From positions 1 to 64,000 of the forward strand of contig CAUJHQ010000115.1 of NCBI GenBank assembly GCA_963204815.1: a stretch of 64,000 bases of DNA, in the 5' to 3' direction. The translations under genes were made by a program, and so were the position numbers. Below the pieces are notes generated by a model, which was not told the DNA's origin, searched no databases, and saw only the letters and a program-made list of their open reading frames with translations. How positions within the stretch are numbered: the stretch's first letter is position 1; each line of letters begins with the position of its first letter. This document shows, one piece after another, positions 3,735-49,438 of this stretch. The stretch comes from Pseudomonadota bacterium. Lineage in GTDB: Bacteria > Pseudomonadota > Gammaproteobacteria > Burkholderiales > Burkholderiaceae_C.

Positions 3735-5032
3735 GCCTGATCGCGGTCGGCTACATCGCCATCGTCGCGATGCTGGCGCTGATCCTGCTGGGCATCCCGA
3801 TCGGCTGGGCGATGGCGATCGTCGGCGTGCTGGGCGAACTCCACGTCACCGGCTTCACGGTCGCTGCATCGAAGCTGAGCCTGACGCTGTGGGAGAACGG
3901 CACGCTGTTCGTCTTCATCGCGTTGCCGCTGTTCCTGCTGATGGGCCAGCTGGCCTACCGCACCGGCATCACCGACGACCTGTACGACTGCATCAGCAAG
4001 TGGTTCGGCCACATGCCCGGCGGCATCGCTGTGTCGGCGGTGCTGTCCAACGCGGCCTACGGGGCCGTCACCGGCAGCAGCATCGCGTCCGTCGCCACGC
4101 TCGGGCCGATGGTGATGCCGGAGTTCCGCAAGTACCGCTACGACCTCAGCCTGGCCACCGGCACGCTGGCCTCGGCCGGCACGCTGGCGGTGCTGGTGCC
4201 GCCGAGCACGCTGCTGGTGATCTACGGCGTCTGGACCGAGACCTCGATCGCCGAGCTCTTCATGGCCGGCATCGTGCCCTGCCTGCTGCTGACGGTGGTG
4301 TACTGCGCCGTGCTGGCGCTGTGGTGCACGCTGAAGCCGGAAGTCGGGCCGCGCGGCCCGCGCCACCCCTGGCCGGTGCGCCTGGCCTCGCTGCGCAAGC
4401 TGCTGCCGGCGCTGGTGCTCATCACCATCGTGCTCGGCGGCATCTACGGCGGCGTGATGACGCCTTCGGAGTCGGCCGCCGTGGGCGTGCTCGGCGTGCT
4501 GGCCATCGCCCTCGCGATGCGGCGCTTCCGCTGGGCGGCGCTGGCCGAGTCGCTGCGCCAGACCATCGCGACCTCGGGCATGGTGTTCGTGATCGTGGTC
4601 ACCGGCATCATGTTCACGCGCTTCATGGTGCACACCAACGTCACGGCCGACTTCGTGGCGATGATCGCCGGCTGGGATCTCGGCCGCACCGGCCTGCTGC
4701 TGGCGATGCTGCTGCTGTACTTCGTGCTCGGCACCGCGCTCGACGGCCTGGGCATGCTGATCCTCAGCCTGCCCTTCGTGATGCCGCTGATGGCCACCGC
4801 CGGCGTCGACAAGGTCTGGTTCGGCATCTTCCTGTGCGTGATGATGGAACTGGCCGCGGTGAGCCCGCCGGTCGGCATCACGGTGGCCGTGATGCGCAGC
4901 GTGGCGCCGGACGTGCCGACGAACGTGATCTTCCGCGGCTGCTACCCGTTCCTGGGCCTGACGGTCCTGCTGACCTTCGCGCTGATCGCCTGGCCCGCGC
5001 TGGCGCTGTGGCTGCCGGCCGCGATGCGCTAG
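3731..5032 (+). CDS. TRAP transporter large permease (DctM-type)
   Basis: 433 aa multi-TM; motifs SNAAYGAVTGSSIASVATLG and VMMELAAVSPPVGI; 4-nt overlap with the DctQ gene. Confidence 0.93.
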   Translation: MSLIAVGYIAIVAMLALILLGIPIGWAMAIVGVLGELHVTGFTVAASKLSLTLWENGTLFVFIALPLFLLMGQLAYRTGITDDLYDCISKWFGHMPGGIAVSAVLSNAAYGAVTGSSIASVATLGPMVMPEFRKYRYDLSLATGTLASAGTLAVLVPPSTLLVIYGVWTETSIAELFMAGIVPCLLLTVVYCAVLALWCTLKPEVGPRGPRHPWPVRLASLRKLLPALVLITIVLGGIYGGVMTPSESAAVGVLGVLAIALAMRRFRWAALAESLRQTIATSGMVFVIVVTGIMFTRFMVHTNVTADFVAMIAGWDLGRTGLLLAMLLLYFVLGTALDGLGMLILSLPFVMPLMATAGVDKVWFGIFLCVMMELAAVSPPVGITVAVMRSVAPDVPTNVIFRGCYPFLGLTVLLTFALIAWPALALWLPAAMR

Positions 5033-42796: not shown

Positions 42797-43504
42797 ATGA
42801 CCGCCGACACCCGCCTCCACGAAGCCGACCGCGAGATCGCGGCACGCGCCGCCGCCGGCGACGCCCGTGCCTTCGAGGCGCTGATGCGGCGTCACAACCG
42901 GCTGCTGTTCCGCGCCGCGCGCGGCATCGCCGGCGACGACGCCGAGGCCGAAGACGCCGTGCAGGACGCCTGGCTGCGTGCCTTCGAGCGCCTAGGCGCC
43001 TACCGCGGCGAAGCGGCGCTGGGCACCTGGCTGGCGCGCATCGCCGTCAACGCCGCCCTCGACGCGCAGCGCCGGCGCGGCCGCGTCGTCGACTGGAACG
43101 CCGCCCCCGCCGAAGACGCCGAAGCGATGGAGACGCGCACGATGGCTCTGCACGCCGAATCCCCCGACACGCCGGACACGGCCGCCGAACGCGGCGAACT
43201 GCGCCTGCTGCTGGAGCACGCGGTGCGCGCGCTGCCGCCGCGCTACCGCAGCGTCTTCATGCTGCGCGCGGTGCAGGAGCTGAGCGTCGACGAGACCGCC
43301 TACGCGCTGCAGCTGAGCCACGACGTCGTGAAGACGCGCCTGCTGCGCGCCCGCGCGATGCTGCGCGACGCGCTGGCCGCGCACCTGGACCGCGGCGCGC
43401 CGCAGGCCTTCGCCTTCGCCGGCGAGCGCTGCGACCGCGTGGTGGCGCAGGTGCTGGGCACCTTGCAGCGGCTCGGCCGCCTGCGCAGCGACGGGCCTGC
43501 CTGA
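42797..43504 (+). CDS. ECF-type RNA polymerase sigma factor
   Basis: Region 2 DAEDAVQDAWLRAFERLGAYRGEAALGTWLARIAVNAALD; region 4 PPRYRSVFMLRAVQELSVDETAYALQLSHDVVKTRLLRAR. Confidence 0.92.
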   Translation: MTADTRLHEADREIAARAAAGDARAFEALMRRHNRLLFRAARGIAGDDAEAEDAVQDAWLRAFERLGAYRGEAALGTWLARIAVNAALDAQRRRGRVVDWNAAPAEDAEAMETRTMALHAESPDTPDTAAERGELRLLLEHAVRALPPRYRSVFMLRAVQELSVDETAYALQLSHDVVKTRLLRARAMLRDALAAHLDRGAPQAFAFAGERCDRVVAQVLGTLQRLGRLRSDGPA

Positions 43505-43557
43505 GGCCGCGCCGCCCCTTCCACTTCGGTTCTTCCCCCCACCCCAAGGAGATGGCC

Positions 43558-44148
43558 ATGAACGGTCAGGACCTGCTGTTGCCCTTCGATTCCCTGAACA
43601 CCGACCTGCGGCAGGCGCGCCGGCGCGCGCTGGCCGGCGGCGGCCTCGTGCTGTCGGCCGCGGCGCTGGCGCTGCTGGGCGGACGCGACGCGCTGGCGGC
43701 CGGCAGCGCTGCCAACGAGTCGGACCTGCGCATCCTGAACAGCGCGCTCGGCGCCGAGCTGGAGGCCATCGCCGCCTACCAGCTGGGCGCCGACAGCGGC
43801 CTGCTGACGAAGGACGTGCGCCCGCTCGCGATGACCTTCCAGGGCCACCACAAGGAACATGCCGACGCGCTGGCCGCCACCGTGCGCAAGCTCGGCGGCC
43901 AGGCCGTGACGCCGAAGGCGAAGTACGGCTTTCCGGTCGACCAGCTGAAGAACCAGGCCGACGTGCTGCGCTTCGCCGCCGGGCTGGAGAAGGGCGCGGT
44001 GTCGGCCTACCTGGGCGCGGTGCCGCTGTTCGGCGACCGCGCGCTCGCGCAGGTGGCGGCCAGCATCCTGGGCGACGAGGCCATGCACTGGGCCGTGCTG
44101 CGGCAGGCGCTGGGCGAAGCGCCGGTGCCGGCAGCCTTCGTGTCGTGA
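43558..44148 (+). CDS. Tat-exported ferritin-like domain protein
   Basis: RQARRRALAGGGLVLSAAALALLGG signal; helical NSALGAELEAIAAYQLG... HHKEHADALAATVRKLGG; SD AAGGAG. Confidence 0.85.
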   Translation: MNGQDLLLPFDSLNTDLRQARRRALAGGGLVLSAAALALLGGRDALAAGSAANESDLRILNSALGAELEAIAAYQLGADSGLLTKDVRPLAMTFQGHHKEHADALAATVRKLGGQAVTPKAKYGFPVDQLKNQADVLRFAAGLEKGAVSAYLGAVPLFGDRALAQVAASILGDEAMHWAVLRQALGEAPVPAAFVS

Positions 44149-44528
44149 GCGCGCTCGCGCTGCAGCTGGCCGCGGCACTGGCGCTGCAGGCGGCGCCGGC
44201 CGCCGCCTCGCTGGCGCGCGGCGAGCAGGTCTACACCCGCTGCGCCGCCTGCCACGCGATCGACACCCACCGCACCGGCCCGCGGCACTGCGGCCTGTTC
44301 GGCCGCCGCGCCGGCAGCGCGCCGGGCTTCGAAGGCTACTCGGCGGCGCTGCGCGCGTCCGGGATCGTGTGGGACGCAAACACGCTCGACCGCTTCCTGC
44401 GTGCGCCCTTCGACGCCGTGCCCGGCACGACGATGGGCTATGCCGGCGTGAAGGACGACGGCGAGCGTGCCGATCTCATCGCCTGGCTGCGCGTGGCCAC
44501 GGCGCAGGGGCGCTGCACGCCGCGCTGA
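44145..44528 (+). CDS. c-type cytochrome
   Basis: Signal peptide; CAACHAI heme motif; distal Met in TTMGYAGV; GTG start overlapping upstream stop. Confidence 0.88.
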   Translation: MSALALQLAAALALQAAPAAASLARGEQVYTRCAACHAIDTHRTGPRHCGLFGRRAGSAPGFEGYSAALRASGIVWDANTLDRFLRAPFDAVPGTTMGYAGVKDDGERADLIAWLRVATAQGRCTPR

Positions 44529-44547: not shown

Positions 44548-44657
44548 TCCGTCGCCGCGGTGCCGGATTCAGGCGGCTGGCAGCGGCGTTCGTCTCAACG
44601 ACAGGGGCGCTCCTTGCGGCCCGCGGGCCTTCGTGCCACGCTGGTGGCGGAGTGCGC

Positions 44658-45809
44658 ATGAGCTCGACCCTCGGCACGTCGGCCCCGGACACCGCCTCGG
44701 TGCAGGCGAAGCGCGGGCGCGCGCCAGCGGCCTCGCGGGCGGTTGCGGGTACGCCGCGGCGCGGGATCGTCGGCCTGGCGCTCGCGCTGGCGCTCGTCTT
44801 CTCGACCCAGTTCTTTGCCCAGGACTTCGTCTGGCGCCACTGGGAGCGCAGCGAGGTGCTGTGGGCGGGGGTCGGCATCCTCGCCGAACGCGCCGCGGTG
44901 GGGCTGGCCGTCGCGGCGGCGGTGCTGCTGGCGCTGCGCGGCTTCGAGCGGCGGCCTTCGCTGCCGCGCGCGGCGCGGACGGTGCTCTACACCGCGGCCG
45001 TGGTGGCCGCGGTGGTGGCGGCGGAGTGGTTGCTCGTGGCGCTGGACACGGCCGACGCCGCCGGCGACCCGGTCGCCTTCGGCGAACACGTGCTGCGCTG
45101 GACCGGCGTGGCGCTGGCCATCACCGGCCTCTGGCTGGCCTGGCAGCGCGCCGTGCACGCCGAGGCGGCGGCCGATCGCCTGCGCCAGGCCGATCAGGGG
45201 GCACAGGCGCAGATCGCCGAACTGCGCCTGCAGACCTTGCAGTCGCAGATCGAGCCGCACTTCCTGTTCAACACGCTGGCCACCGTGCGGCGGCTGGGGG
45301 CCACCGAGCCGGCGCAGTGCCTGCAGCTGCTGAACCACCTGGTCGACTTCGTCGCGCTGTCGCAGGCGGCGCAGCCGGGGCGGCGGCGCTGGTGCGTTGC
45401 CGATGAGCTCTCGCTCGTGCGCGCCTACCTGAGCGTGATCGAGCTGCGCATGGAAGGGCGCCTGCGCCTGCGCTTCGACGTCGACCCCGCCGTGCTCGGG
45501 CACGAGGCGCCGCCGCTGGCGCTGGCCACGCTCGTCGAGAACGCCGTCAAGCACGGCATCACGCCTTCCACCACCGGCGGCGAGATCGCCGTGCGCGCGC
45601 ACCTGGCCGACGGCGAGGTGCGGCTCGCGGTGGCCGACACCGGCGTCGGCCTGCGCGGCGGCGGCGGCAGCGGCATCGGCCTGGCGAACACGCGCGCGCG
45701 GCTGCGCACGCTGTACGGCGACATGGCGCGCCTGCGGCTGGCCGCCCACCGGCCGACCGGCGTGGTCGCCACGCTGCAATGGCCGCTGCAGCGCGCGGAG
45801 CCGCGGTGA
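44658..45809 (+). CDS. LytS-type sensor histidine kinase
   Basis: LQSQIEPHFLFNTLATVRRLG (H-box), LVENAVKHGI (N-box), DTGVGL...GSGIGLANTRARL. Confidence 0.92.
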   Translation: MSSTLGTSAPDTASVQAKRGRAPAASRAVAGTPRRGIVGLALALALVFSTQFFAQDFVWRHWERSEVLWAGVGILAERAAVGLAVAAAVLLALRGFERRPSLPRAARTVLYTAAVVAAVVAAEWLLVALDTADAAGDPVAFGEHVLRWTGVALAITGLWLAWQRAVHAEAAADRLRQADQGAQAQIAELRLQTLQSQIEPHFLFNTLATVRRLGATEPAQCLQLLNHLVDFVALSQAAQPGRRRWCVADELSLVRAYLSVIELRMEGRLRLRFDVDPAVLGHEAPPLALATLVENAVKHGITPSTTGGEIAVRAHLADGEVRLAVADTGVGLRGGGGSGIGLANTRARLRTLYGDMARLRLAAHRPTGVVATLQWPLQRAEPR

Positions 45810-46852
45810 GCGAGGCCCTGCCCATCGACCTGCGGCGCTGCCTGGTGCAGTCGCTGCTGGTGTCGGCGATGCAGATGGTGATGTTCCAGCCGGGCTACCT
45901 GATCTACATGTCGACGCAGGACCCCCGCCTCGTGCCGCTGCAGGCGCTGGTGCTGCTGGCCTCGTTCCTGGCGTTCGCGATGACGATGTCCGTTGCCGCG
46001 CAGTGGGTGGAGGGCCGCTGGTCGTGGCCCGCCGTCGCGGCGCTCGGGCTGGCGCTGTGCACGGCGCTGGCGCTGCTGCAGCGGCCGGCCAACGCGGCGG
46101 TGCACGTCTGGCTGGGCCTGCCCACGCTGAGCCTGTCGCCCTGGTTCGCGGCGTGGATCGCCTTCGCGAGCGGGCTGCCGTTCTTCGCCTACTGTCTGAT
46201 CGTGCAGCGCTCGGTGCGCGTGCGCGCGCTGCTCGGCCGTGCCGAGTTCGAGCGCACGCGCACGGCGGCCCTGGTCGGCCAGGCGCGCGCCGACACGCTG
46301 GAAGGGCGCGTCGACCCGGCGCTGCTGCAGCGCGCGCTGGTGGCGCTGCGCGCCGCCTACGCGGGCCCGCGCGAGCGCGCCGAGGGCCTGCTAGACGCGC
46401 TGGTCGACTTCCTGCGGCAGGCGATGCCGGCGATCCGCAGCGGCCGCTCGACGCTGATGGAAGAGCTGACGCTGCTGCGCCGCTACGCCACGCTGGTGCA
46501 GCGGGTCGATGGCGGCCGCGGCCTGTGCGAGGTGAGCGCCGAAGCGCCGCCGCGCGACCCGCCGTTCGCGCCGCTGCTGCTGATCCCGCTGGTCGAAGCG
46601 CTGGCGGGCGCGGGCGGACGCGCCGGCCCGGTGCGCCTGGCGCTGCGCGTGCAGGCGGCCGGCGCGATGCTGGCCTTCGACGTGCCGGCACCCGGCCCGC
46701 CGCTGGACGAGCGCTGGTGCCAGCGGCTCGACCGCGCCCTGCGCACCACACCCGACGCCGCCGGCGCGCGCTACGACGTCGGCGGCTCGCACGCCCTGAC
46801 GCTGTGGCTGCCCTTGCCACCCCTGCCCGAGGAGAAGACCGATGGACACTGA
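45806..46852 (+). CDS. Degenerate LytS-like membrane protein (putative pseudo-histidine kinase)
   Basis: GTG start overlapping upstream TGA; DHp-like RADTLEGRVDPALLQRALVALRAA (His lost), PLVEALAGAG in place of LVENAVKHG, no G-box. Confidence 0.75.
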   Translation: MSEALPIDLRRCLVQSLLVSAMQMVMFQPGYLIYMSTQDPRLVPLQALVLLASFLAFAMTMSVAAQWVEGRWSWPAVAALGLALCTALALLQRPANAAVHVWLGLPTLSLSPWFAAWIAFASGLPFFAYCLIVQRSVRVRALLGRAEFERTRTAALVGQARADTLEGRVDPALLQRALVALRAAYAGPRERAEGLLDALVDFLRQAMPAIRSGRSTLMEELTLLRRYATLVQRVDGGRGLCEVSAEAPPRDPPFAPLLLIPLVEALAGAGGRAGPVRLALRVQAAGAMLAFDVPAPGPPLDERWCQRLDRALRTTPDAAGARYDVGGSHALTLWLPLPPLPEEKTDGH

Positions 46853-47267
46853 TCCCCGCCCGAACGAAGCGCCCGGCCCGGTCGACGACGCGCGGCGCGC
46901 CCTCGCGGCGCTGCTGCCCGCCTTCGTCTTCGCGCCCGCCGCGCAGGCGCAGGACGCTGCCAAGGTGCAGCCCGCCGCCTACAAGGTGGTGCTCGACAAC
47001 CACGCCATGCGCGTGCTGGAGTTCAACAGCCGCCCCGGCATGGGCATCTGCGGCGAGGGCATGCACTCGCACCCGGCGCACCTGACCGTGCTGCTGTCCG
47101 ACCTGTCGCAGGCGCGCATCCGCCTGCCCGACGGCAAGACCTTCGGCGGCAGCAAGAAGCTCGGCGACGTGTTCTGGAGCGAGGCCGAGACGCACGAGGT
47201 GGAGAACCTGTCCGGCCGCCACGTGCGCACGCTGATCGTCGAGCTGAAGACGGCCGGCAAGGCCTGA
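46842..47267 (+). CDS. Cupin-fold protein with signal peptide
   Basis: RRALAALLPAFVFAPAAQAQD signal-like; GEGMHSHPAHLTVLLSD and ETHEVENLSG cupin-like His motifs. Confidence 0.8.
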   Translation: MDTDPRPNEAPGPVDDARRALAALLPAFVFAPAAQAQDAAKVQPAAYKVVLDNHAMRVLEFNSRPGMGICGEGMHSHPAHLTVLLSDLSQARIRLPDGKTFGGSKKLGDVFWSEAETHEVENLSGRHVRTLIVELKTAGKA

Positions 47268-47281
47268 ACCGGCGCAACGCG

Positions 47282-48040
47282 ATGCCTGCCCCCAGCGCCC
47301 TCGTCGCCGAGGACGAAAGCGTGCTGCGCGACGAGCTGTGCGCGCACCTGTCGGCGCTGTGGCCCGAACTGCGCATCGTGGCGCGCGCCGCCAACGGCCT
47401 GGAAGCGTTGCAGCTGCAGGAGCGGCACCGCCCCGACGTGCTGTTCCTGGACATCGAGATGCCCGGCCTCAGCGGCCTGGAAGTGGCGCGCCAGGCCGAG
47501 CGGCGCCAGCACCTGGTGTTCATCACCGCCTACGACGCGCACGCGGTGGCGGCGTTCGAGCGCGGCGCGGTCGACTACGTGCTGAAGCCGTACACCGCGG
47601 CGCGGCTCGCCGAGTCGGTGCGCCGCGTGAAGGAGCGGCTCGGCCGCGCGGTGCCGGCGCCCGAGGCGCTCGACAGCGTGCTGCGCGAGCTGGCCGCGGT
47701 GGCGCAGCCGCGCGAGCACCTGCGCTGGATCAACGCCTCGTCAGGCACCGAGGTGCGCGTCATCACGGTCGACGAGGTCTGCTACTTCCGCGCCGACACC
47801 AAGTACACGCTGGTCGCCACGGCCGAGGGCGAGGCGCTGATCCGCCGCACGCTGAAGGAACTGCTGGACCAGCTCGATCCGGCGCAGTTCTGGCAGGTGC
47901 ACCGCTCGACCATCGTCAACGCCAACGCGATCGCCGGTGTCACGCGCGACTTCCGCGGCCGCGTGCACCTGAAGCTGAAGGCGCGCAGCGAGAAGCTGCC
48001 GGTGAGCGAGCAGCACGAGCACCTGTTCCGCCAGATGTAG
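47282..48040 (+). CDS. LytTR-family response regulator (AlgR/LytR-like)
   Basis: ALVAEDESVLRDEL, DVLFLDIEMPGLSGLEVAR, YVLKPY; LytTR VDEVCYFRADTKYTLVAT...FWQVHRSTIVN. Confidence 0.95.
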   Translation: MPAPSALVAEDESVLRDELCAHLSALWPELRIVARAANGLEALQLQERHRPDVLFLDIEMPGLSGLEVARQAERRQHLVFITAYDAHAVAAFERGAVDYVLKPYTAARLAESVRRVKERLGRAVPAPEALDSVLRELAAVAQPREHLRWINASSGTEVRVITVDEVCYFRADTKYTLVATAEGEALIRRTLKELLDQLDPAQFWQVHRSTIVNANAIAGVTRDFRGRVHLKLKARSEKLPVSEQHEHLFRQM

Positions 48041-48160
48041 CGCGGTGGCGGGCCGGTGGGCCGCGTTCGATGCCGCTTTCGCCGCGTTCGTCCGAAAGCG
48101 CTGCGGGCGCGGCGGCGGCGTCGAATCATCCGCGCACCCAACCACTCCCGCGAGGCCGCC

Positions 48161-49438
48161 ATGCACCGAACCGCCACGATTCCCCTGAGCCCGATCGCCG
48201 CCGTGCTGCTGTCGGCGCTGGCCGGCTGCGGCAGCCTCGGCAGCCCTGCACCCGACGCCGCCACGGGCCGCGAAGTGACGATCAGCCCGCGCGGCGACAA
48301 CGTCGTCGCCACCTGGGGCCAGGTGGCCTTCAAGGCCATCGGCAGCACGAACCAGGACCTCGTCACCGTGCACCTGGCGATGTACGACGCCGTGATGGCG
48401 ATCGCCCGCACGCACCAGCCCTACGCGATCCGGCCCGCGACCAGCGGCGCCGGCGCGGGCGAGGTGGGCATGAAGGCGGCCGCCGTCGAGGCCGCGTACC
48501 GCACGCTGCGCGCGCTGGCGCCGGCCGGCGGCGCGACCTACGAGCCGCCCTACGCCGCCGACCTGGCGGCGCTGCCCGAGGGCGACGCGAAGCGCCGCGG
48601 CCTGGCGATCGGCGCCGAGGTCGCCGCCGGCCTGCTGGCGCTGCGCGCCAACGATGGCCGCGCCACCGTGCTGCCGCCCTACGTGGCGGGCACGCAGCCG
48701 GGGCAGTTCCGCGGCGCCAACCCGATCAACCGCATCGGCCCCTTCATCAAGCCCTTCGCGACGCGCAGCCACGACCAGTTCCGCGCCCCCGGGCCGCCGC
48801 CGCTGGCGAGCGAGGCCTACGCCGCCGACCTGAACGAGGTGCAGCGGCTGGCGTCGGCCACGAGCACGGTGCGCAGTGCCGCGCAAACCGAGGTGGCACG
48901 CTTCCACACCGAGCCGCCGCCGCCGTTCTGGACGCGCAACCTGCGTCGCTTCGCGACCGCGAGCGACAGCCTGGCCGACAACGCGCGCCTGTCGGCGATG
49001 CTGTACACGGCGCACCACGACGCGGTCGCCGCCTGCTTCGAGAGCAAGTACCACCACAACTTCTGGCGCCCGGTGAGCGCGATCCAGCAGGCCGACACCG
49101 ACGGCAACGCCGCCACCCGGCCCGACCCGGCGTGGGCGCCGCACGTGCCGACGCCCAACCACCCGGAGTACCCGGCCGCGCACAGCTGCGCCTGCGCCGC
49201 GGTGGCCGAGGTGCTGCGATCGTTCTACGGCACGAGCCGGGTGCGCTTCGAGTTCGACAGCACGGTGGCGGGCACGCAGCCGCACCGCTATGCGGGCCCC
49301 GACGACCTGGTGCGCGAGATCGCCGACGCGCGCGTCTGGGGCGGCATGCACTTCCGCTTCTCGACCACCGACGGCGCCGTGCTCGGGCGGCGCGTGGCCG
49401 AGTGGGTGGTGAAGCAGCACTTCCGGCCGGCCGACTGA
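48161..49438 (+). CDS. Vanadium-dependent haloperoxidase/PAP2-superfamily lipoprotein
   Basis: Lipobox LAGC; KYHHNFWRP (K-x6-RP), PEYPAAHS (PxxH), ARVWGGMHF ((S/A)RxxxGxH). Confidence 0.88.
   Translation: MHRTATIPLSPIAAVLLSALAGCGSLGSPAPDAATGREVTISPRGDNVVATWGQVAFKAIGSTNQDLVTVHLAMYDAVMAIARTHQPYAIRPATSGAGAGEVGMKAAAVEAAYRTLRALAPAGGATYEPPYAADLAALPEGDAKRRGLAIGAEVAAGLLALRANDGRATVLPPYVAGTQPGQFRGANPINRIGPFIKPFATRSHDQFRAPGPPPLASEAYAADLNEVQRLASATSTVRSAAQTEVARFHTEPPPPFWTRNLRRFATASDSLADNARLSAMLYTAHHDAVAACFESKYHHNFWRPVSAIQQADTDGNAATRPDPAWAPHVPTPNHPEYPAAHSCACAAVAEVLRSFYGTSRVRFEFDSTVAGTQPHRYAGPDDLVREIADARVWGGMHFRFSTTDGAVLGRRVAEWVVKQHFRPAD

Follow-up and report, generated by a model that had tools for sequence, protein, structure and literature searches.

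The second of two adjacent LytS-type genes in the window (the whole stretch of DNA analysed here, 64,000 nucleotides) is predicted to encode a histidine pseudokinase, K2, in which the kinase fold appears to be retained and the catalytic residues have been lost in a conserved way. Adjacent pairs of K2 and the LytS kinase that precedes it, K1, were found at 12 loci, from five families within one order, and their sequences support the view of K2 as a maintained, conserved pseudokinase. Judged by its residues, K1 alone should be able to bind ATP and accept phosphate, K2 being left only to sense and dimerise. The histidine kinases of bacteria are taught as homodimers, and the natural kinase/pseudokinase pairs known to us are few and mostly one-offs. 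The K1-K2 pairing recurs in five families, in three of which the dead partner is reduced to its membrane and dimerisation parts, and the series of pairs is natural material for asking what a pseudokinase contributes.

K1 and K2 in the Window

The features of the locus are as follows.

44658..45809, + strand: K1, intact LytS-family (His_kinase/HATPase_c) membrane sensor kinase, 383 aa
45806..46852, + strand: K2, LytS-type pseudokinase, 348 aa, with at least three hydrophobic segments, DHp-like helices and a degenerate ATPase domain
46842..47267, + strand: cupin, 141 aa, with a degenerate twin-arginine-like leader and the motif PGMGICGEGMHSHPAH ... ETHEVEN
47282..48040, + strand: LytTR-type response regulator (receiver plus LytTR), 252 aa, receiver Asp kept (FLDIEMPG)
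48060..48090, + strand: candidate operator, direct repeat GCCGCGTTCG / GCCGCGTTCG with N11 between, 21 nt start to start
48161..49438, + strand: predicted output gene, exported vanadium-haloperoxidase/PAP2-like protein with a lipoprotein-like leader
44585..44614, + strand: degenerate copy of the repeat upstream of K1, GGCGTTCGT ... GGCGCTCCT, 21 nt apart, 7/9 positions alike

K1 has all that marks a LytS-type sensor kinase (PF06580 plus HATPase_c): the His, the Asn and the G-boxes are present and the curated score is reached, with Pfam matches at 1.6e-15 for PF06580 and 3.5e-8 for HATPase_c. Its motifs are IEPHFLFN (H-box), LVENAVKHG (N-box) and DTGVGL and GSGIGLAN (G-boxes), and both EPHFLFN and the N-box are conserved across 11 aligned K1 relatives. 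K2, which overlaps K1 by 4 nt (GTGA, 45806-45809), scores 20.4 bits against PF06580, below the curated cut-off of 25.2, and has no HATPase match; at the catalytic sites it reads VDPALLQRAL (H-box), LVEALAGAG (N-box) and VPAPGPPL (G1 box). It cannot be classed as an active LytS-type kinase, the phospho-acceptor His and the ATP-binding boxes being gone. The structural model of K2, built from an 11-sequence alignment (mean pLDDT 73.8), shows membrane helices, a long linking helix, DHp-like helices and a reduced alpha/beta domain; its top PDB match is the GanS kinase domain, with DivL and RetS lower in the list.

A sequence-only reading of this DNA had placed four genes here, all of which are open at those positions (GC3 of the frames, 0.95-0.96). 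Its account of the first kinase as intact in H-, N- and G-boxes is borne out by motifs and Pfam scores, and its account of the second, as overlapping the first by 4 nt, degenerate at the His site, N-box and glycine box, and keeping a membrane and DHp-like layout, agrees with the overlap, the motifs, the absent HATPase match and the K2 model.

K1-K2 Pairs in Other Genomes

The search for further pairs began from a same-genus neighbour, G017. Seven pairs are from the same genus (the window, G017, G100, G025, G097, G070, and G004) and five from four other families of the order (G467, G058, G490, G220, and G223); two of the compared genomes are MAGs. A profile search across the class, covering 369 genomes with the 30 top loci read, gave no further pairs, and a K2 profile search of genome contigs matched only G017, G100, and one normal kinase (L086). 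These counts are lower bounds, because K2 profiles score active kinases almost equally high.

The His has been lost from 11 of the 12 K2 proteins, G004 alone retaining it, and in all 12 either the N-box is lost or the ATPase domain is absent. Three K2 proteins from three families (G058, G220, and G223) have had the ATPase domain deleted, with the membrane part and DHp remaining. At the His site the eleven others have A, A, G, Q, Q, Q, E, E, E, D, and T, with no common replacement. Among 164 unique LytS proteins aligned at the H-box column (a sample rather than a census, since top-scoring loci were taken), 11 have no His, and every one of these is the K2 of a pair. The sequence-only reading had named orthologs retaining the His and ATP-binding residues as the mark of sporadic decay; what we found is loss of the His in 11/12 and of the N-box in 12/12. 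The K2 of G004 (L159 5701-6756) has its His (VEPHVLFE) and has lost its N-box, and may represent a half-way state or a FasC-like phospho-acceptor. Elsewhere, at L080 1228-2166 (G278:C34), an in-frame stop (TAG) splits a LytS kinase between its DHp and ATPase parts.

The start of K2 overlaps K1 by 4 nt in six of nine tabulated pairs, as well as in G220 and G004. Mean pairwise identity between K2 proteins is 32% in the DHp versus 24% in the ATPase region; between K1 proteins it is 48% and 50%, respectively. Distances among K1 and among K2 proteins correlate (r 0.72, Mantel p 0.0002, n 11), a relationship that also follows from shared species history. The two trees mirror each other in parts, with window/G017, G100/G004 and G467/(G070,G097) recurring in both. 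K2 forms one clade (SH-aLRT 99) when all columns are used; with the ATPase region cut and the H-box masked, the K2 sequences are still together in the best tree and the support is gone. A single origin of K2 is likely from these alignments.

Cupin, Regulator and Candidate Operator

The cupin gene overlaps K2 by 11 nt (46842-46852). Its product is too divergent for Pfam, falling below the cut-offs, and its placement among the cupins (double-stranded beta-helix, HxH...H) comes from a model (pLDDT 84) that matches the solved cupins 3lag, 9u8n, and 2fqp, with HSHP and ETH kept at a predicted metal site. The sequence-only reading, which had reported the overlap and HxH...H, was right in this. RPA4178 (3lag), BP2299 (2fqp) and AzcA (9u8n) share the fold at 22-28% identity, but they are domain chains of ~96 residues, whereas the window cupin adds a leader and a CGxG loop before HxHP. 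The signal-like N-terminus that had also been reported is weak in the window taken alone, where the leader is degenerate; it is clear as a twin-arginine leader, KARRQLLLAGLGSLGAQIALGEAYAQ, in the G220 cupin, and all four members of the subfamily (window, G017, G220, and G100) retain the RR pair.

Three of the 12 pairs, from two families, carry the cupin (window, G017, and G220), and at each it follows K2 and precedes the regulator, with coupling or fusion to K2. G220, from another family, has K1, a K2 without ATPase domain, the cupin (ATGA overlap with K2) and the regulator, in that order. In G017 (L044 5846-7573) a single open frame covers both K2 and cupin, with an Ala-rich repeat linker and a hydrophobic stretch connecting them; this fusion is known from one assembly, and the linker, which holds four near-identical AADPETAAR repeats, is low-complexity. 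Because the cupin is missing from 9/12 pairs, K1-K2 does not need it; its recurrence at G220 and, fused, at G017, together with shared subfamily motifs, makes it a repeated, optional part of the layout that is tied to K2. The co-occurrence with the kinases expected by the sequence-only reading thus holds at three loci in two families, one of them an in-frame fusion, and does not extend to the other nine pairs.

A search of 399 genomes of the order ranked the window (234 bits) and G220 (153 bits) as the best two, the next reaching 91, and PLSDB plasmids gave no match to the cupin. A fourth cupin, in G100 (C292, L052 1545-2983), adjoins a LytTR regulator that has unrelated sequence in place of its receiver N-terminus; it lies near a transposase-like gene and looks like a broken or misassembled relative. 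The motif PGxG[IV]CGxGxH[SW]HP is common to these four cupins and was seen only at LytTR loci, and CGxG is absent from 17 other cupins recovered in the searches. Related small exported cupins also occur without a kinase nearby, and the genome of the window itself has a second, distant one with no adjoining kinase genes (L048 around 4603-4950; G000:C115:92602-92949).

The regulator has the receiver and LytTR domain of a LytTR response regulator intact (Response_reg 69.2 bits, LytTR 82 bits); the sequence-only reading had placed a LytTR regulator after the cupin. Among NCBIfam models it matches BtsR best, at 133.6 bits where the cut-off is 246. Between it and the haloperoxidase-like gene lies the direct repeat, which that reading did not mention, nor did it mention the gene. 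Shuffled sequences gave 0.00 expected copies of GCCGCGTTCG N11 GCCGCGTTCG, and the repeat is unique in the 455 kb scanned of this genome (about 10%). Published LytTR sites are 9-bp direct repeats with 11-13 bp between them (PMC6193735), and the repeat, its 11 bp falling in that range, qualifies by sequence and spacing as a candidate LytTR operator that identifies a candidate target promoter. G017 has the same repeat, at 20 nt spacing, upstream of K1, so that its position differs: before the output gene in the window, before K1 in G017. The copy at 44585..44614 may be a weak relative of the repeat and is suggestive only. None of the other pair loci yielded the CGCGTTCG operator; G220 has a weak ATTCGTC repeat, probably by chance.

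The product of 48161..49438 scores 29.4 bits against VCPO_2nd (cut-off 27) and has KYHHNFWRP and GGMHFR; its vanadate/phosphate loop reads PAAH where PSGH is usual, and among its relatives G017 reads PAAH and G220 PSGH. The gene lies after the regulator in the window, as does its counterpart in G017 (49% identity), and G220 has a homologous fragment upstream; a gene of this kind was seen at all three cupin loci but at none of the eight compared pair loci that have no cupin, some of which lie on short contigs. Directly 5' of K1, the window (42797-44528) encodes an ECF sigma factor, a ferritin-like protein with a twin-arginine-like leader, and a cytochrome c. In G220, K1 is likewise preceded by a cytochrome c, along with a SoxC-like sulfite dehydrogenase; in G017 it is not.

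A Proposed Mechanism and Its Alternatives

We propose that duplication of a LytS kinase gave rise to K2, and that K2 is now retained as an obligate partner of its active neighbour K1. Translational coupling would make the two proteins together, and they would pair through their DHp helices, K2 providing only membrane sensing and a dimer surface and K1 providing ATP binding and the phospho-acceptor His from which the LytTR regulator is phosphorylated. In the cupin variant (window, G017, and G220), the periplasmic signal would be carried by a cupin that is exported, binds a metal or ligand, and is tied to K2. The phosphorylated regulator would then bind the CGCGTTCG direct repeat and turn on the haloperoxidase/PAP2-like gene and, in G017, also its own operon. 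We infer the heteromer, the direction of signalling by the cupin, the target of the regulator and the nature of the signal, and regard the explanation as a whole, with K2 as obligate K1 partner through the DHp, the cupin as input and the regulator acting on the repeat, as on balance probable.

The K1-K2 heteromer itself, whether its effect is activation or inhibition, seems to us quite probable from the sequences, and is the most economical reading because of strict adjacency, coupling and co-evolution. K2 might be an antagonist, pairing with K1 to keep it inactive, as RetS acts on GacS, until a signal through cupin or K2 lifts the block. The conservation of K1 and K2 together fits any functional link, inhibition included; RetS, moreover, is among the fold matches of K2 and has been described as an inhibitor of GacS (PMC12675982). 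Nothing in the sequence sets the sign, however, and FasC, the nearest genetic analogue, acts with FasB to activate a regulator, which leaves antagonism unlikely in our judgement. The His kept in G004 beside a lost N-box has the half-way look expected if K2 were a phospho-relay variant, using another residue or receiving phosphate in trans as FasC may through its own His, but the eleven other His sites (A, G, Q, E, D, or T) have no replacement in common, and we hold this to be highly improbable. Sporadic decay of K2 is rejected on the evidence of the 12 loci, because relatives from five families have lost the same residues. Rapid evolution and a degenerate ATPase region would suit a decaying duplicate carried along by coupling, but the frames are open with normal GC3, the DHp is better kept than the ATPase part, and K1-K2 distances are correlated; decay of this kind is strongly disfavoured and hardly credible.

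For the cupin, we favour a role as periplasmic input, at about even confidence, because it precedes the regulator, is coupled or fused to K2, and has an apparent export leader. It may instead be an output or accessory enzyme (e.g., for detoxification) that merely shares the operon, K2 alone being the sensor partner. That reading draws on the optional nature of the cupin (3/12), on the small exported cupins without neighbouring kinases, and on its co-occurrence with the haloperoxidase-like gene, by which it could belong to the output; placement before the regulator with coupling or fusion to K2 at 3/3 loci, and the restriction of the subfamily motif to LytTR loci, weigh against it, and we consider it a lesser possibility. 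With the cupin taken as input, this variant yields a clear hypothesis of the way in which a LytS sensor could be supplied by a periplasmic binding protein. From the site rich in Cys and His, and from the haloperoxidase-like output, we speculate that the signal is a metal, halide or oxidant. A rather doubtful extension is a four-part sensor, in which a Tat-exported, probably metal- or redox-binding cupin receptor docks on, or is fused to, a pseudokinase free of phosphate chemistry, which gates its LytS partner and through it the LytTR regulator and the haloperoxidase-like enzyme.

The sequence-only reading had called the arrangement a new signalling layout, which is overstated, since heteromers of active kinases with pseudokinase-like partners have precedents in FasBC/FasA, RetS/GacS, DivL/CckA, and ChrS/HrrS, and the cupin is optional. 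K1 and the regulator belong with LytS/LytTR two-component systems such as BtsS/BtsR and YpdA/YpdB; those, as far as we know, have one active kinase per regulator and neither a coupled pseudokinase nor a cupin. RetS/GacS, DivL/CckA, and evolved ChrS/HrrS are alike in that a kinase-like protein modulates another, active kinase, but they are of other kinase families, without a LytTR regulator or a cupin. Their partners are not known to be encoded together. The nearest published system is FasBCA of group A Streptococcus, with two adjacent sensor kinase genes and one regulator; FasC, however, keeps the His that 11/12 K2 proteins have lost, and FasBCA has no exported cupin. The FasBC kinases are of an AgrC-like subfamily, not LytS/PF06580. 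Two-hybrid data exist for a FasB-FasC heterodimer, and FasC has been proposed to be a pseudokinase with a dispensable kinase domain and H246 as the likely phosphorylation site (PMC12675982); the evolved ChrS pseudokinase acts through HrrS (PMC9491836). In the literature searched, we found nothing joining LytTR with a cupin, or a haloperoxidase with a response regulator, in a relevant way. LytTR regulatory systems (LRS) resemble the window locus in having a LytTR regulator and direct-repeat operators with matching spacing, but in them the regulator is controlled by a membrane inhibitor protein and has no cognate kinase (PMC6193735), whereas the window locus, with its full kinase and receiver Asp, falls outside that class.
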